Source: Verrucomicrobiota bacterium (GTDB taxonomy: Bacteria > Verrucomicrobiota > Verrucomicrobiia > CAIQCK01). Taken from it: a stretch of 64,000 nucleotides of DNA. Both the position numbers and the translations under genes were made by a program. Under the pieces are notes generated by a model. It ran no database searches. It was not told the origin of the DNA and worked only from the letters and a program-made list of their open reading frames with translations. The stretch covers positions 1 through 64,000 of the forward strand of contig JAPLTX010000012.1 of assembly GCA_026397915.1 (NCBI GenBank), read 5' to 3'. How positions within the stretch are numbered: position 1 is the first letter of the stretch; every line of letters begins with the position of its first letter. Of the stretch, positions 11,850 to 22,090 are shown one piece after another.

Positions 11850-14095
11850 GTGCCGTCGCACTGCCGTTTGCCGGGAACGAGACGCTGTTCGGGCGCGACC
11901 GAACTGAAGGCATCGTCGCGGTCGAACTGGTGCCGGGCGATGACAGCGCGATGCGCGTGTTCCTGCGCGAAGACAGCCAGCTCAAGAGCGTGGCGCAACC
12001 GTTCCAGCCGTTCCTGTGGCTCACTGACGCGGCGTTTCTGAACACATGGTCCGGCAAGGCGGAGATCGAGCCGCTCGCCGATGCTGGCGAGTTCCGCGCG
12101 CTTGCGACGTTCCGGTCGTGGTCGGATTTTCAATCGGCGCGCAAACATCTGCTCGACGAAACCGGCGCGACTGCCGCCAGCCCGGAAGCGCCGTTCTATT
12201 TCCTCAACGACCCAGTCGCGCAACACCTGATGCGGACGGGCCAGACATCGTTCAAGGGCATGCGCCTCGACCAGCTTCGCCGGCTCCAGCTGGACATTGA
12301 GACCTACACAGGCAAAGGCTACGAATTCTCTAGTGCCGAGCGCGCCGAGGATCGCATCTTGTTGATCTCGCTCTCCGACAGCACCGGCTGGGAAATGACG
12401 CTCGCCGGCGACGAGAAGAAGATGCTCCAGCAACTCGTCGAGGTTGTCCGCGAGCGCGACCCGGATGTGATCGAAGGGCACAACCTCTTCAAGTTTGACT
12501 TGCCCTACCTGGCGGCGCGCGCCAAGCGCCACAAGGTGAAGCTCGCGCTCGGCCGTGACGACTCGGCGCTCAGCTCGTATCCGTCGCGCGTGCAGATCGC
12601 GGAGCGGACGATCAACTATCCGAAGTTTGAAATCTACGGCCGGCACATCGTGGACACGTTCCTGTTGGTGCAGTTCTACGACGTGAGCACGCGGGAGCTG
12701 GAGAGCTTTGGCCTCAAGGACGTGGCGCGGCATTTCGGCCTCGCGCCGAAGGACCGCACCTATCTCGACCCGAAGGAAATCCCCGCGCTCGCCGATGCTG
12801 GCGCGGCGGGCATGGAGAAGCTGGCGCGCTACTCGCTCGACGATGTGCGCGAGACGCGGGCGCTGGCGGCGTTGCTGTCGCCCAGCTACTTCGTGCAGGC
12901 GCAGATGTTCCCCTACGGCTACCAGGACGTGGTCGTGCGCGGCAACGCGACGAAGATTGACACGCTCTTCGTCCGCGAATACCTCCACCAGCGCCGCGCG
13001 CTGCCGCGGCCGGAGTCGGCGAGGCAGTTCGAGGGCGGCTACACCGACATTTTTCACGAGGGTGTTGCTGAGAACGTCTGGCATTGCGACGTCGCCTCGC
13101 TCTATCCGAGCGTGATGCTTGCGTTCAACATTGTGCCGAAGAAGGATGAGCTGGCGATCTTCAGGTCGCTGCTCTCGGAACTGCGCGACTTCCGCTTCCG
13201 CGCCAAGTCGCTGCTGCGCGAGGCAAAGGACGAGGCGGCGCGCAACCATTTCAACGCGCTTCAGCAGACGTTCAAGATCGTCATCAATAGCTTCTACGGC
13301 TACCTCGGCTTCGCGCAGGCTCATTTCGGCGACTTCGACGCAGCGTCGGCGGTGACGGCGAAGGGGCGGGAGATCTTGCAGGCGATGATCGCCTGGCTGC
13401 GCCAGCGCGGCGCGCACATCATCGAGATTGACACCGACGGCATCTACTTCCAGCCGCCGAAGGACGTGGCCGGCGAGCCGGAGCGCGGGATGAAGCTGCT
13501 CGACGAAGAACTGACCGCGACGCTGCCGAAGGGGATCGAGGTGGAGTTCGACGCGCGCTACCGGGCGATGTTCAGCTACAAGATGAAGAACTACGCGCTG
13601 CTCGACGACGATGGCCATGTGACGATCAAGGGCGCGGCGCTGAAGTCGCGCGGGCTGGAGCGGTTCCAGCGCGAGTTTCTGGAGGATCTGCTGCGGCTGT
13701 TGCTGGAGGGCCGGCGGCGCAAGGACATTCTCGACAAGTTGGAGGATTATCGCAGCGCCATCGAGCGGCGGCGCTGGCCGATCGAGATGTTGATGAAGAC
13801 CGAGACGCTCAGCGACTCGCTCGACGTTTACAAAAAGAAGATCACCGCCGGCTCCGGCAAGGGCGGTCGCAATCGCTCCGCCGCCTACGAACTGGCCGTG
13901 CGCAGCGGCAAGCCGTATCAGCCGGGCGACCAGTTGTCGTTTTACATCGTCGGCGACACCGCAAAGGTGACGGCTTACGAGGCGTGCAAGCCGGTGAGCG
14001 ACTGGGACTCGCAGCGGCGCGATGAGAATGTTGAGTATTATGTGGACAAACTCGTCGCACTCTATAAAAAGTTCTCTAGTTTCATCCCCACATGA
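11846..14095 (+). CDS. Family B DNA polymerase with 3'-5' exonuclease motifs
   Basis: Exo I LDIETYT, Exo II GHNLFKFDLPYL, Exo III YSLDDVRET; polymerase motif A CDVASLYPSVML, motif B QTFKIVINSFYGYLG, motif C IEIDTDGIYF. Confidence 0.93.
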   Translation: MSAVALPFAGNETLFGRDRTEGIVAVELVPGDDSAMRVFLREDSQLKSVAQPFQPFLWLTDAAFLNTWSGKAEIEPLADAGEFRALATFRSWSDFQSARKHLLDETGATAASPEAPFYFLNDPVAQHLMRTGQTSFKGMRLDQLRRLQLDIETYTGKGYEFSSAERAEDRILLISLSDSTGWEMTLAGDEKKMLQQLVEVVRERDPDVIEGHNLFKFDLPYLAARAKRHKVKLALGRDDSALSSYPSRVQIAERTINYPKFEIYGRHIVDTFLLVQFYDVSTRELESFGLKDVARHFGLAPKDRTYLDPKEIPALADAGAAGMEKLARYSLDDVRETRALAALLSPSYFVQAQMFPYGYQDVVVRGNATKIDTLFVREYLHQRRALPRPESARQFEGGYTDIFHEGVAENVWHCDVASLYPSVMLAFNIVPKKDELAIFRSLLSELRDFRFRAKSLLREAKDEAARNHFNALQQTFKIVINSFYGYLGFAQAHFGDFDAASAVTAKGREILQAMIAWLRQRGAHIIEIDTDGIYFQPPKDVAGEPERGMKLLDEELTATLPKGIEVEFDARYRAMFSYKMKNYALLDDDGHVTIKGAALKSRGLERFQREFLEDLLRLLLEGRRRKDILDKLEDYRSAIERRRWPIEMLMKTETLSDSLDVYKKKITAGSGKGGRNRSAAYELAVRSGKPYQPGDQLSFYIVGDTAKVTAYEACKPVSDWDSQRRDENVEYYVDKLVALYKKFSSFIPT

Positions 14096-15627
14096 ACGGA
14101 ACCTGGAGCCATATCGAGAACACGGCGATCTATGTTGGCGTCGCCGTGCTGACCTATCTTCCGCTGTTGGCCGTGGCGCATCTGGTGAAGAAGCGGTTGC
14201 GTGTGCCGCTGGGGTTTTCCTTTCACATTTTCGCCCTGCTCTCGGCGACGCTGGTGGCTTGGGTTGTCCATGAGGCGCATGCCGCGCCACATGTGGACCC
14301 GCCGTGGGTGCTGTCGGTGCGTAACGCCCTTATCAGCACGTGGGCGGTGTTTCTGGCGTTGCAGGTTAACAACGTGTTGGCGAGATTCGTTTGGCAGTTC
14401 GCGCTGGAGGAGCAACGTCGGGTCAAGGTGCCCAAGCTGTTACGCGACCTCGCGAAGGCCCTGCTGTTGCTGGCCGCCGTCCTCTGCGTGATGAAGTTTG
14501 TCTATGGCCAGCAACTTGGCACGATCATCACCGCTTCGGGCATCGTGGCCGTCGTGCTGGGCTTCGCGCTCCAAAACCTCCTGGGCGATGTCGTGGCCGG
14601 CATCGCGCTAAACCTGGAGAAGCCGTTCGACATCGGCGACTGGATATGGGTGGGTGAAACCGATGGCGAGGTCATCGAAATTAACTGGCGCGCCACGCGC
14701 CTGCGCACTCGGGACAACAATTACCTCATCATCCCCAACGGCAACATCACCAAGCAGAACATCACCAATTTCCACTACCCGGACCGCGTGCATGCGCTGA
14801 AGTGCTCCGTCGGCGTCGAATACGGCGCCGCGCCCAACGACGTGAAAAACGTCCTGCGCCAAGCCGTGCGGCACACCTCCGGAGTCCTCCCACAGGAACC
14901 GCGCATCCGGTTGAAGCAGTTCGGCGACTCCGCCATCAACTACGAGATCAAGTTCTGGGTGGAAAACCGCGCGGCCTCCGACGACATCCTCAGCGACGTG
15001 ATGACCAACATCTGGTATGCGCTGCGCCGGGCGCGCATGAGCATTCCGTTCCCGATTCGCGACGTGTTCATGCACCAGCCCGCTGAAGCGGACAGCGTGG
15101 AGCAGCAGCGTCGGGCCGACGCCGAACACGCGCTGCGGGCGGTGGACTTGTTCAAACCGCTCGACCATGACCAGATCGTGGCGCTGGCCGGGCGCGGCCG
15201 GCTGGTGCGCTTCGGCCGCGGCGAGACTGTCATCAGCAAAGGCGATGCGGGCGATTCGTTGTTCCTGATCGTCAGCGGCCAAGCGTCGGTGAAACTCGCA
15301 CGCGAGGGTGGCGGCGAGGTGATTGCCGGCGCTTTGAAGACAGGTAACACATTTGGCGAGATGTCGCTGCTGACCGGCGCGCCGCGCAACGCGACCGTTG
15401 TGGCCGAGAGCGACCTGCGCTTGCTGGAGATCGGCAAGGACGCGCTTGGCCCGATGTTGCAGGAGAATCCAGCCGTCGCTGAGGCGTTGAGCCGGTTGAT
15501 GGCGGATCGCCAGCTTGCCACCGACGATTTTCACAAACAGCAACAGAACACCGTCGGAGCGGCCGCAAGGCGCGAGGACTACGCCACCACCCTGTTGCGC
15601 AACATTCGTGATTTCTTCAGTATCTAG
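14092..15627 (+). CDS. MscS-family mechanosensitive channel with C-terminal cyclic nucleotide-binding domain
   Basis: MscS core GTIITASGIVAVVLGFALQNLLGDVVAGIALNLEKPFDIGDWIWVGETDGEVIEINWRATRLRT; cNMP-binding domain VISKGDAGDSLFLIVSGQASV...GNTFGEMSLLTGAPRNATVVAESD. ATGA overlap with the polymerase gene. Confidence 0.92.
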   Translation: MNGTWSHIENTAIYVGVAVLTYLPLLAVAHLVKKRLRVPLGFSFHIFALLSATLVAWVVHEAHAAPHVDPPWVLSVRNALISTWAVFLALQVNNVLARFVWQFALEEQRRVKVPKLLRDLAKALLLLAAVLCVMKFVYGQQLGTIITASGIVAVVLGFALQNLLGDVVAGIALNLEKPFDIGDWIWVGETDGEVIEINWRATRLRTRDNNYLIIPNGNITKQNITNFHYPDRVHALKCSVGVEYGAAPNDVKNVLRQAVRHTSGVLPQEPRIRLKQFGDSAINYEIKFWVENRAASDDILSDVMTNIWYALRRARMSIPFPIRDVFMHQPAEADSVEQQRRADAEHALRAVDLFKPLDHDQIVALAGRGRLVRFGRGETVISKGDAGDSLFLIVSGQASVKLAREGGGEVIAGALKTGNTFGEMSLLTGAPRNATVVAESDLRLLEIGKDALGPMLQENPAVAEALSRLMADRQLATDDFHKQQQNTVGAAARREDYATTLLRNIRDFFSI

Positions 15628-16983: not shown

Positions 16984-17052
16984 GTAGCGCCGGCATCCTT
17001 GCCGGCGACCCTTCGCGCCCATGAACAACGCCGGCAGGGATGCCGGCGCTAC
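16984..17052. repeat. REP-like palindrome with 24-nt arms and 21-nt spacer, between convergent genes
   Basis: GTAGCGCCGGCATCCTTGCCGGCG (16984-17007) and CGCCGGCAGGGATGCCGGCGCTAC (17029-17052), complementary except one position. Confidence 0.85.
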
Positions 17053-18431
17053 TTTCCTTCCGGCAACTGTCGCAACGCCGTGTCGGCGGGTTTGATCTCC
17101 GGCAACTCCGCCTCGGCCAGGCCGCCGGCGAGTTTGATCAGCTTCTCGCCGCTGGGCCGCACGCGACGCTCATACGAGCCGAGCGCGTTGTCGAACGCCT
17201 TGCCGGCCTTCTCCAGCCCCTCGCGAATGCCGGCGAAATGCTCGATGAACTTCATCACGCGCTCGAACAACTCCTTGCCTGCCTCGCCAATCTCGCGCGC
17301 GTTCCGCGTCTGCGCGTCCTGCTGCCAACTCATCGCCACGGCATAGAGCAGCGCGATCAACGACGACGGCGTTGCGAGCAGGATGCCGAGGCCCGCCGCG
17401 TCCACGATCAGGTTCGGGTCGCCTTCCAACGCCGCGCTAAGCAGCGACTCCGCCGGCACGAACAACACCACCTTGTCGAGCGCGTTCGGAAACTGCTTCG
17501 GGTAGTTGCGCGCCGCGAGGTCGCGGACGGTGCCCTTCAGCTTCGCTGCGTGCGCCGCCAGCTTTTCGCGCCGCGTCGTTTCGTCCGCGACACCGAGCGC
17601 GGTGAGGAAATCGAGGTCTGGCACCTTCGAGTCCACGATGATCACGCGGTCGCCCGGCAGCTTCACCAGCATGTCGGGCCGCGTGTCGCCCGCCGCCGTC
17701 TGTTCGACGAAGTCGCAATGCGCGCTCATCCCAGCCGCCTCGACGACACGCCGCAGCGTTTCCTCGCCCCAACGGCCGCGCGCCTGGCTGGAACTGAGGA
17801 CGCGCCGGAGTTGGTTGGTCTCGCTGGCGAGCGACTGGCTCTGGTTCTGGAGTGCCTCGAGCTGCTGGCGGACCGCGCCAAGCGTCTCCGTCTGCTTCTG
17901 CTCGCTGGCTTGAAGTCGCTTCTGGTAGGCGTCGAGCTGCTCCTTCAGCGGCGCGACAATGCCAGAGATGGCCTCTTGCCGCGCCTTGAGGTCGCCCTTG
18001 GCCGTCTCCGCCAGCTTCGCAAACGTCTCGTTAGCGAGCCGCAGGAATTCCGGCTGCGTTTCCTTCAGCGCCCTGACCGACAGCGCGGTGAAGGCTTCGC
18101 GCAAATCCACCAGCGCCTTCTCTTGGGCGAGTTTCAGATCGCCGAGCGCCTGCGCCTGTTGCTGTTGCTGCTCCGCCAGCCGCGCGGCGGCGTTCGTCTC
18201 CTTCGTCTCGGCGGCAACGCGCGCCTGTTGCTCGGCGGAAAGTTTCTCGCGTGTGGTGACCAACTCGGCGTCGCGCTGCTGAATCTGTCCGCGCAGTTCG
18301 GCCTCGATGCGCCCGGCCGCGTCAGCGCGGGCCTGCGCCTCGCGGCCTTTGCGTGCGGCGATGATGAACCCGATCAGACCGCCGACGACCAAGCCGGCGA
18401 GAAGAAGGATGATAGGTAAAGCGTCCGTCAT
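17049..18431 (-). CDS. rmuC: DNA recombination protein RmuC
   Basis: N-terminal TM anchor LPIILLLAGLVVGGLIGFIIAARKG, long coiled coil, then VKLPGDRVIIVDSKVPDLDFL, FVPAESLLSAALEGDPNLI, LATPSSLIALLYAVAMSW. Start ATG at 18431. Confidence 0.93.
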   Translation of the reverse strand: MTDALPIILLLAGLVVGGLIGFIIAARKGREAQARADAAGRIEAELRGQIQQRDAELVTTREKLSAEQQARVAAETKETNAAARLAEQQQQQAQALGDLKLAQEKALVDLREAFTALSVRALKETQPEFLRLANETFAKLAETAKGDLKARQEAISGIVAPLKEQLDAYQKRLQASEQKQTETLGAVRQQLEALQNQSQSLASETNQLRRVLSSSQARGRWGEETLRRVVEAAGMSAHCDFVEQTAAGDTRPDMLVKLPGDRVIIVDSKVPDLDFLTALGVADETTRREKLAAHAAKLKGTVRDLAARNYPKQFPNALDKVVLFVPAESLLSAALEGDPNLIVDAAGLGILLATPSSLIALLYAVAMSWQQDAQTRNAREIGEAGKELFERVMKFIEHFAGIREGLEKAGKAFDNALGSYERRVRPSGEKLIKLAGGLAEAELPEIKPADTALRQLPEGK

Positions 18432-18553
18432 GGTAGTAGCGTGACTGGCCGGATGTTGTCCGCAGCGCGTCGCAGTGTCGAGCGCGATTTCGCCAGCGGC
18501 GGCGGGCTTGACGGCTCCACCGCCACCGCCCAGAATGCCGGCGGAGGTGCAAT

Positions 18554-19018
18554 ATGACTGAATCATCTACTGACAAAGCCCGCAGCAAGGATCGCCTGCC
18601 GGAATACGCCATCTACAAACCCAACGCCCGCGGCAGCGGCGGCGTGGTGCGGTTCGAGCTGAACCGCGAGAAGGGTGCGGTGTTCGTGGACGGCGCCAAC
18701 CAGTCGGGCGAGAAGCAGTTCGACTGGGAGAAGAAGATCACTATGAAGTGGGGGCTGCATGATCTCGGCGCGGTGCTGGCCGTGCTGGAGCGGCGGGCGC
18801 CGGACGCGAAGCTGTTTCACAAGACGGAGAAGTTCAACAGCGCGTTCGAGCTGGCGTCGCAGGACTCGCCGGACCGCGCGCCGTATTTTATCCACATGTC
18901 CCATCAAGACGCGGCGACCAAGCAGGTGAAGAAGGTTGGCATTCCGCTGACGCACGGCGAGGCGGCGGTGCTGGAGACGCTGTTGAAGACGGCGGTAGCA
19001 CGGCTGATGGGATGGTGA
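18554..19018 (+). CDS. Whirly-like ssDNA-binding protein (candidate)
   Basis: QFDWEKKITMKWGLHDLGAVLAVLERRAPDAKLFHKT ... APYFIHMSHQDAATKQVKKVGIPLTHGEAAVLETLLKTAVARLMGW resembles the plant Whirly core (YDWxxKQxFxLSxTEIGxLxSL...EFFHDP ... YFxxLSVxN...VPxTxAEFAVxxxAFxFxLPxLxGW), recalled from memory. Confidence 0.55.
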   Translation: MTESSTDKARSKDRLPEYAIYKPNARGSGGVVRFELNREKGAVFVDGANQSGEKQFDWEKKITMKWGLHDLGAVLAVLERRAPDAKLFHKTEKFNSAFELASQDSPDRAPYFIHMSHQDAATKQVKKVGIPLTHGEAAVLETLLKTAVARLMGW

Positions 19019-19234: not shown

Positions 19235-22090
19235 ATGAAATCCATCGGGACAATCGGCGCTGGCAAACACTGGTTTGTGGCATTGGCGGCGGTCGTCATA
19301 GGCAGCTTGCGGATCGCGGCGGCCGACATTGTGTGGCTCGAAACCGAGCAATTCGAAGAGTTTGGCGGCTGGGTCAACGACTCACAGTTCGTGGACCAGA
19401 TGGGTTCGCCGTATCTGCTCGCGGATGGTATCGGCACCCCGGCGAAGGATGCGGTGACGCACGTTGACCTGCCGCGCGCGGACCGTTGGCGACTCTGGGC
19501 GCGCGCGCGCGATTGGGAGCCGAAGCATCATCCGGGACGGTTCCAAATCCTGCTGAACGGCAAACCGGTGGGACGCGAGTTCGGCGCGAGCGGCAAGAAC
19601 GGCTGGAGTTGGGAAGATGGCGGCTCGCACGAACTCTCCGGCAAGATCGAGCTCCGTTTGCGCGACCTCACAGGCTACTACGGCCGCTGCGACGTGATCG
19701 TGCTGACGACGGACTTCGACTGGACGCCGCCCGACGGCAAGGACGCCATCGCCGCGTTGCGCGAGAAGTTCGGTGGCGTGAGCCGCGAGGTCAGGAATGC
19801 CGGCGATTACGACGTGGTCGTGGTCGGCGGCGGGCTGGCGGGTTGCATGGCAGCGGTGTCGTCGGCGCGGATGGGCGCACGCACGGCATTGATCCAGAAC
19901 CGACCGGTGCTCGGCGGCAATGGCAGCACGGAAATCCTCGTGCCGCCCGTAGGCGTCTGGCCCGGCGGACGATGGGATGCGCGCGACCCGCGCGAAACCG
20001 GTTTGATCGAGGAGGTGCGCACGATTGGCAATCAGCGTGCGGTGGAGACGCGCTATTACTCCGGCCGACTCCAACGTCTCTGCACAGCCGAGCCAAACCT
20101 GACGCTGCGGTTGAACACGCACGTTACCGGCGTCCAAACCCGGCCCAATGCGACAAACACCATCGCCGCCGTGTTCGCCCTCGACGTGAAGACGGGCGAG
20201 CGCCTCCGTTTCACCGGCCGCATTTTCGTGGATTGCACTGGTGACGGCATCGTGGGCAAGGACGCGGGCGCGGTCTGCCGCCGCGGCCGGGAATCTCGTT
20301 CGATGCACAACGAATCACTCGCGCCGGAGAAAGCCGACGAGACCACGATGGGCAACTCGCTCAAATACTTCAGCCAGTCCACCGGCACGAAGCAGACGTT
20401 TGTGACGCCGCCGTGGGCGGTGAAGTTCGCCTCGTGCGACGATTTCCCCGAGCGCCGTCATCCGCCGCACCTGACCGCGGAGATGGGCTGGCAATGGATG
20501 CTCGAACTCGGCGGCATGCGCGACACGTATCGCGACAAGGAGGAAATCCGCGACGACTTGCTCAAGCTCATCTACGGCATCTGGGACCACGTGAAGAACG
20601 GTTGCCCGAAGCTCAAGGACGAAGCCGCCGACCACAAACTCGTCTGGGTCGGCAGCGTCGCCGGCGTGCGCGAAAGCTGGCGGCTGATCGGCGACTGTAT
20701 CTTCACCGAGAACAACATGGCCGAGCAGACGCTGTTTCCGGACCGCGTTGCCTACGGCGCGTGGGGACTCGACGATCATTACTCGGAAGGGTTCTTCCAT
20801 CGCGGGCTGCCGTCGCATCATCCTTACACGGGCCGTCTCCACTCGATTCCGTATCGGAGCCTCTACTCGACGAACGTCGTCAACTTGCTCATGGCCGGTC
20901 GCGACATTTCCGCCACGCACATCGGCATGGGCACGACGCGCGTGCAGTTGACGTGCGCCGTCATGGGTCAGGCCGCGGGCACCGCCGCCGGGATGTGCGT
21001 CGAGCGCGGTGCGACACCGCGCGAGATTTACCGGAGCTATCTCGACAAACTTCAGCAGCAGTTGCTCAAGGACGGCGCTTACATCATTGACCTGCCGAAC
21101 CACGACCCCGCCGACCTCGCCCGCGCTGCGCATGTTACCGCCTCCAGCGAGGGCATCGGCACGAAAGGCGAACCGATGCCCGCCACGAACGTCATCAACG
21201 GCATCGCCCGCGTAGTCGGCCACAACGGCAACGCGTGGATGCCCAACCGGAACGTCGCGCCGCCGCATTGGATTGAACTGGCTTGGCGCGAGCCGCAGAA
21301 GTTCAACGTCGTTCATGTGACGTTCTTCACAAAGCGGCACACCCCGAAACATTTTGCCGTGGAAGCGTGGGTGAACGGTAGTTGGAAGAAGCTCGCGGAA
21401 GTCGGTGACAAACCACTGCGCCGCCATGTGCTCGGTTTGGAACGTGTCACCGCCTCCAAGTTGCGCGTGGTCCTCTCCGACGCCGTCGGCATCTGCGAGA
21501 TTCGCGTCTATGACGAACCGGAGCGCGTCGTGGAGATCGCCCGCCGCGCCGCGAACAACCAGAGGTTGCCCGACGTAAGCGCGCGCCTGCCGTGGGAAAC
21601 GAGCGATGTGCCGGAGGATGCGACGATCACGTCCGGCGCAAAATCTTCGCCCGGCATGCCGCTGGAGGAAGCCGTGAAAAAGTTTGGCGGCATCCTGCTA
21701 GATGACTCAGAAGCCGAAACCACCGGCGACTGGGGCCGTTCGACCTACTCAAAGCCGTTCATCAGCGACGGATATCTGACTGACGGCAACGGCGGCAAAG
21801 GCGCGAAGAGCGCCAGCTTCCGCCCGAACCTGCCGAAGGCCGGCGCTTACGAAGTGCGGCTGGCCTACGCCGCCGAGAACAATCGCGCGACCAACACGCC
21901 CGTGACCATCCGAACCTCGCGTGGCGAGAAGACGATGGTCGTGAACCAACGCCGCGCGCCGGAGATCGCCGGCTTGTTCCACTCGCTTGGCCGCTTCGAC
22001 CTCGACGCCGGCTCCGCCACCGCCATCGTCATCTCCAATACCGGCACCGACGGCTATGTGGTGGTGGACGCGGTTCAAATCGTGCCGTGA
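19235..22090 (+). CDS. Secreted FAD-dependent oxidoreductase with C-terminal golvesin/xanthan-lyase-like domain
   Basis: Signal peptide; Rossmann DYDVVVVGGGLAGCMAAVSSARMGARTALIQNRPVLGGNGSTE; GRDISATHIGMGTTRVQLTCAVMGQAAGTAA; C-terminal YEVRLAYAAENNRATNTPVTIRT...GYVVVDAVQIVP. Confidence 0.85.
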   Translation: MKSIGTIGAGKHWFVALAAVVIGSLRIAAADIVWLETEQFEEFGGWVNDSQFVDQMGSPYLLADGIGTPAKDAVTHVDLPRADRWRLWARARDWEPKHHPGRFQILLNGKPVGREFGASGKNGWSWEDGGSHELSGKIELRLRDLTGYYGRCDVIVLTTDFDWTPPDGKDAIAALREKFGGVSREVRNAGDYDVVVVGGGLAGCMAAVSSARMGARTALIQNRPVLGGNGSTEILVPPVGVWPGGRWDARDPRETGLIEEVRTIGNQRAVETRYYSGRLQRLCTAEPNLTLRLNTHVTGVQTRPNATNTIAAVFALDVKTGERLRFTGRIFVDCTGDGIVGKDAGAVCRRGRESRSMHNESLAPEKADETTMGNSLKYFSQSTGTKQTFVTPPWAVKFASCDDFPERRHPPHLTAEMGWQWMLELGGMRDTYRDKEEIRDDLLKLIYGIWDHVKNGCPKLKDEAADHKLVWVGSVAGVRESWRLIGDCIFTENNMAEQTLFPDRVAYGAWGLDDHYSEGFFHRGLPSHHPYTGRLHSIPYRSLYSTNVVNLLMAGRDISATHIGMGTTRVQLTCAVMGQAAGTAAGMCVERGATPREIYRSYLDKLQQQLLKDGAYIIDLPNHDPADLARAAHVTASSEGIGTKGEPMPATNVINGIARVVGHNGNAWMPNRNVAPPHWIELAWREPQKFNVVHVTFFTKRHTPKHFAVEAWVNGSWKKLAEVGDKPLRRHVLGLERVTASKLRVVLSDAVGICEIRVYDEPERVVEIARRAANNQRLPDVSARLPWETSDVPEDATITSGAKSSPGMPLEEAVKKFGGILLDDSEAETTGDWGRSTYSKPFISDGYLTDGNGGKGAKSASFRPNLPKAGAYEVRLAYAAENNRATNTPVTIRTSRGEKTMVVNQRRAPEIAGLFHSLGRFDLDAGSATAIVISNTGTDGYVVVDAVQIVP

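Follow-up and report, generated by a model that had tools for sequence, protein, structure and literature searches.

The Whirly family (PF08536), whose plant members guard the DNA of organelles, is characterized by assembly into tetramers and 24-mers and by nanomolar binding of single-stranded DNA (ssDNA). According to reviews, a KGKAAL motif is required in plants for DNA binding or 24-mer assembly. Published accounts treat Whirlies as specific or unique to plants (PMC9070903, PMC6963530, PMC2377264), and their described fold combines two helices with a pair of four-stranded sheets (PMC10909546, PMC6963530). Algal and Marchantia Whirly-like proteins lack KGKAAL as well (PMC9070903), so this motif marks the higher-plant branch rather than the whole family. 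Among other proteins of related architecture, MRP1 and MRP2 of T. brucei were earlier noted to have a Whirly-like fold although their sequences are not similar (PMC2377264), and PUR domains are already known from bacteria (PMC7990775). Our search, which covered the open-access literature, found no paper that describes Whirlies from Verrucomicrobia or phages or encoded next to ssb. Whereas reviews label Whirlies plant-specific, the bacterial branch, viral relatives and ssb linkage described below provide a bacterial setting for their origin.

A Whirly-family gene and its predicted fold

The DNA analyzed here (the window) is a 64,000-nucleotide stretch of a Verrucomicrobiota genome, in which a forward-strand gene (18554..19018, stop codon included) encodes a Whirly-family protein of 154 aa, assigned by Pfam, PDB and AlphaFold2/Foldseek comparisons. 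Against three congeners, its dN of 0.035-0.041 contrasts with a dS of 0.28-0.54 (dN/dS about 0.07-0.14), and the ORF is therefore a real protein-coding gene under purifying selection. A GGAGG ribosome-binding site (18543..18547, forward strand), read directly from the sequence and kept in four congeners, precedes the ATG by 6 nt. An earlier sequence-only reading of this DNA had pointed to a resemblance to plant Whirlies, and the motifs on which it relied (FDWEKK, HDLGAVLAVLE, LFHKT, YFIHMSHQD and VGIPLTHGEAAVLETLLKTAVARLMGW) are all present in the 154-aa ORF, with FDW (codons 56-58, 18719..18727, forward strand) as the counterpart of plant YDW.

This resemblance goes beyond chance. The window protein matches the Pfam Whirly family PF08536 at E=4.5e-10 with 39.9 bits (curated cut-off 23), and phmmer against the PDB retrieved six plant Whirly sequences (E=3.5e-7 to 1.2e-4), the sole match besides plant Whirlies lying at E 0.77. 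With a profile of 43 relatives, the best plant Whirly match in the PDB improves to 8.4e-9, and hhalign aligned 118 columns of these relatives with five plant Whirlies at 27% identity (98.0%, E=1.9e-13); 35 of the 43 relatives also match Pfam Whirly. The window-type relatives are strongly conserved in sequence. Their N-terminal motif, YKPNARGSGG in the window protein (codons 21-30, 18614..18643, forward strand), stands where plants have KGKAAL, and the pattern Y[KH]PNx[KR]GxG was found in 78/81 verrucomicrobial and 10/10 viral sequences. PHROGs and NCBIfam, searched with the window protein, returned no match, and a Pfam side match to T6SS_VgrG3-like_C was set aside as it lay under its cut-off.

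The AlphaFold2 model (pLDDT 91.1, pTM 0.82) is predicted to have the Whirly order of elements, namely four strands, a helix, four strands and a helix, and thus the two four-stranded antiparallel sheets and two helices of the whirligig fold. The conserved terminal GW comes after the modeled C-terminal helix (codons 134-152, 18953..19009, forward strand), and at the N-terminus a stretch of 12 residues has low confidence, as for a disordered tail. Foldseek against the PDB matched plant Whirlies, including StWhy2/AtWhy2, at E 2e-8 to 2.8e-6 with TM up to 0.74; MRP1/MRP2 of T. brucei rank as high (E from 1.2e-8), and the next class is PURA (E=3.4e-4). Together with the profile-profile comparison, this supports the Whirly fold for which a structural check had been proposed. 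Both sequence and predicted structure thus give good support for placing the window protein in the Whirly family.

Neighborhoods, sister group and distribution

The divergent neighbor of the Whirly gene is rmuC (17049..18431, reverse strand, ATG at 18431; PF02646, E=2.8e-82), and the coordinates confirm an intergenic distance of exactly 122 bp, as the sequence-only reading had noticed. From this layout it had derived a genome-stability pair under a shared divergent promoter. Nevertheless, rmuC occurs within 5 kb of the Whirly gene in 2/80 loci, both from the window's genus: in L017 at the same short gap and in the same divergent layout, and in L015 about 1.2 kb off with one gene between. In the congener L016, rmuC was looked for within 5 kb of the Whirly gene and is absent. 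The pairing is therefore not conserved, and the earlier reading had itself named a lost rmuC neighbor as counting against it. Furthermore, the region contains a single promoter-like site, a predicted sigma-70-like promoter on the Whirly side, TTGACG-17-CAGAAT (18508..18536, forward strand), identified by consensus match (one site, compared with 0.1 expected from shuffles). All four congeners, among them L016 with no rmuC nearby, retain TTGACG and the spacing of 17, with a slightly variable second hexamer. Since the site lies directly upstream and its -35 element and spacing are kept, L016 included, the Whirly gene is best read as having its own predicted promoter, which argues against a shared one. 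Of the original interpretation as a whole, the Whirly homology and fold hold, whereas the genome-stability pair with rmuC does not; the corresponding partner in the sister group described below is ssb.

Other neighbors are likewise clade-specific. A priA gene lies near the Whirly gene in 16 loci, 15 of them divergent, among Akkermansiaceae/Verrucomicrobiaceae relatives (e.g., L061:2605-4875), a chromosomal context suggestive of replication restart. A gene for gyrA/topoisomerase IV subunit A is located upstream on the same strand in 8 loci, and a cytochrome P450 gene downstream in 15. On the tree, six labeled groups (priA, gyrA-type, P450, rmuC, viral and plant) require 6 changes, compared with 33 in shuffles, and no single one of these neighbors, priA, gyrA-type, P450 or rmuC, is conserved across the window's class. 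Downstream of the Whirly gene in the window lies a gene for an FAD-dependent oxidoreductase with F5/8-type C and Golvesin C-terminal domains (19235-22090), an order shared with the congeners L016 and L017, and the window also encodes an MscS-type channel with a cyclic-nucleotide-binding domain at its C-terminus (14092-15627). A sulfatase cluster was set aside as a meaningful neighborhood because sulfatases are probably common in such genomes.

Outside the window's class, but within the same phylum, a divergent sister group was recognized, with L013 and L014 as its first homologues. In a single BLASTP comparison, P0001 and the sister-group protein of L137 are 33% identical (E=2e-22), and a search with the sister-group profile recovers the window gene (E=1.6e-22). 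This profile detected homologues in 46/388 sampled phylum genomes outside the class, spanning at least 19 families. Compared alone with plant profiles, the sister group gives a weak match (hhalign 46.6%, E=2e-4; PDB E=0.07), with its S-A-L-R-x-E-P-R aligned on plant A-A-L-T-V-E-P-R, and its Whirly identity therefore rests on the window-type intermediates.

The neighbor of the sister-group gene is a canonical ssb, identified by PF00436 (E=6.3e-32) and by a C-terminus ending in DDMPF. In two orders, ssb lies upstream on the same strand in 12/12 genomes found, at a distance of about 21 bp or less in 5 of the 12; in one of the 12 (L013/L137), a PD-(D/E)XK_3 gene (L013:2044-2412) sits between ssb and the Whirly homologue. 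Across the phylum sample, ssb is upstream, co-directional and within 1.5 kb in 23/30 loci from 13 families, a count that reflects shared ancestry rather than 23 independent events. The conserved ssb-whirly pair was noted with L014 (898-1929), L128-L146, L148, L150-L162, L164 and L165. The retention of this linkage across 13 families is a strong association of the sister group with ssDNA metabolism. In the window's own branch, ssb was looked for within 5 kb of the Whirly gene and none was found, so that the inference from ssb extends to the window gene through homology.

A scan of bacterial genomes returned 134 relatives, from which 80 loci were kept. A close relative of the window gene is thus present at 80 or more Verrucomicrobiota loci; all but one of the kept loci are recorded under this phylum, and the copy of the exception groups with the window's genus. 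A plant-specific distribution, taken here as a description of the known carriers and not as a structural criterion, does not hold in view of these 80 bacterial loci. Within the window's class, occurrence is patchy, with one copy each in 16/384 sampled genomes from three families.

On ten viral contigs there are relatives that carry the N-terminal motif and show 24-36% identity to the window protein, and the model of the L095 protein (pLDDT 89.0) matches plant Whirlies first (E=6.3e-7). An SSB gene is also present on 3/10 of these contigs, the records of which may be fragments. In several of them (L095:3293-5522, L100:3067-5531, L096-L099 and L102), an endonuclease-like gene, a gene of 230-310 aa and the Whirly homologue form a trio; the second gene had no match in Pfam and PDB searches, and its assignment by eye as a recombination annealase was dropped. 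A search of phage records for relatives found none. In addition, mobilizable or conjugative plasmids of Sulfuricystis and Azospira (L105:4892-5863, L106:5476-6441) encode proteins of ~320 aa with a weakly Whirly-like C-terminal part (Pfam Whirly E 0.02-0.09), adjoined by a helicase and, in Azospira, also by RdgC; given these weak matches, they are not claimed as Whirlies.

Function and alternative explanations

We consider it likely that the window gene encodes a bacterial Whirly-type accessory ssDNA-coating protein that acts beside SSB, is expressed from its own promoter and limits illegitimate annealing; the ssb linkage of the sister group and the fold make this the best explanation. The gene would be transcribed from its own promoter, and its protein would oligomerize through its helices, coat ssDNA along the two four-stranded β-sheets and so assist canonical SSB where ssDNA is exposed, as in gaps, at stalled forks and at resected ends. 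There it may limit illegitimate annealing, like plant Whirlies. Oligomerization, ssDNA binding and protection against rearrangement are properties that we infer for the window protein.

RNA could also be the ligand, since the guide-RNA-binding MRP1/MRP2 share the top Foldseek ranks, and RNA binding as well as effects on splicing have been reported for plant Whirlies (PMC9070903). An RNA-binding or RNA-annealing Whirly-fold protein acting like MRP1/MRP2 nevertheless appears unlikely, as the sequence and profile matches are to plant Whirlies and not to MRPs, and as the sister-group gene keeps company with ssb, with priA and gyrA-type genes lying near some relatives in the window's branch. The same ssb linkage, pointing towards general ssDNA handling, bears on a sequence-specific transcription factor acting on melted promoter DNA, the role first proposed for plant Why1, which was originally described as a PR-10a regulator (PMC2377264, PMC10909546); with no specific neighboring target conserved, we regard this role as very improbable. 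Least probable of all, and by our estimate barely credible, is a dedicated partner of rmuC under a shared divergent promoter, which would account for the 122-bp layout in the window and in L017 but not for its rarity among the 80 loci, for L016, or for the promoter-like site that persists there.

A domesticated phage protein now serving the host chromosome is an explanation of origin, compatible with the accessory ssDNA-coating role. The N-terminal motif and fold shared with the viral relatives speak for it, but a plant-rooted quick tree, which carries long-branch warnings and settles neither root nor direction, places the long viral branches inside the bacterial set, and we hold such an origin to be rather unlikely. 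A broader scenario can be offered tentatively, as a possibility that we ourselves doubt: Whirlies may have arisen long ago in bacteria and phages as SSB partners, ancestrally encoded beside ssb, and plant organelle Whirlies would be a later offshoot acquired from bacteria or phages. Under this scenario, the bacterial protein and SSB would jointly control microhomology annealing and replication restart. In the bacteria described here, the role of Whirlies beside SSB becomes testable in a cell without organelles.

Comparison with known systems

The closest described proteins are the plant Whirlies (Why1/2/3, PF08536), with which the window protein shares the family profile, the FDW/YDW and FH motifs, the terminal GW, the predicted fold and its topology. 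Unlike them, it is bacterial and chromosomally encoded, is about 27% identical, and lacks the acidic/aromatic C-terminal tail of plant Whirlies (PMC6963530), its last residues being the conserved GW. The literal KGKAAL of the higher-plant branch was sought in the window protein and is absent; at the position of plant I-Y-K-G-K-A-A-L, proteins of the bacterial branch carry Y-K-P-N-x-[RK]-G-x-G, and the two motifs may be equivalent, judging from their position and the shared I-Y-K.

MRP1/MRP2 of T. brucei resemble the window protein in their Whirly-like fold (Foldseek E about 1e-8), but have no sequence match here and serve as RNA matchmakers of mitochondria. PUR-alpha and bacterial PUR-domain proteins (PC4-like class) share the broad class of ssDNA/RNA-binding fold; they also have no sequence match, and a PUR/PC4-like assignment was rejected because the fold is nearer to Whirly (TM up to 0.74) than to PURA (TM 0.42). 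Canonical SSB (OB fold, PF00436) presumably has the same ssDNA substrate and is the upstream neighbor in the sister group, but it has a different fold, and the window's genome encodes one separately, elsewhere. The best match among predicted viral structures is A0A6J5NR37 (E=4.8e-8) from an uncultured Caudovirales phage, a protein that bears the database name 'Whirly transcription factor' and for which we found no study. Because Pfam recognizes the family and this phage protein is so named, the homology itself is already visible to automatic annotation; what is new here is the divergent sister group, 33% identical, linked to ssb and present in at least 19 families outside the window's class.
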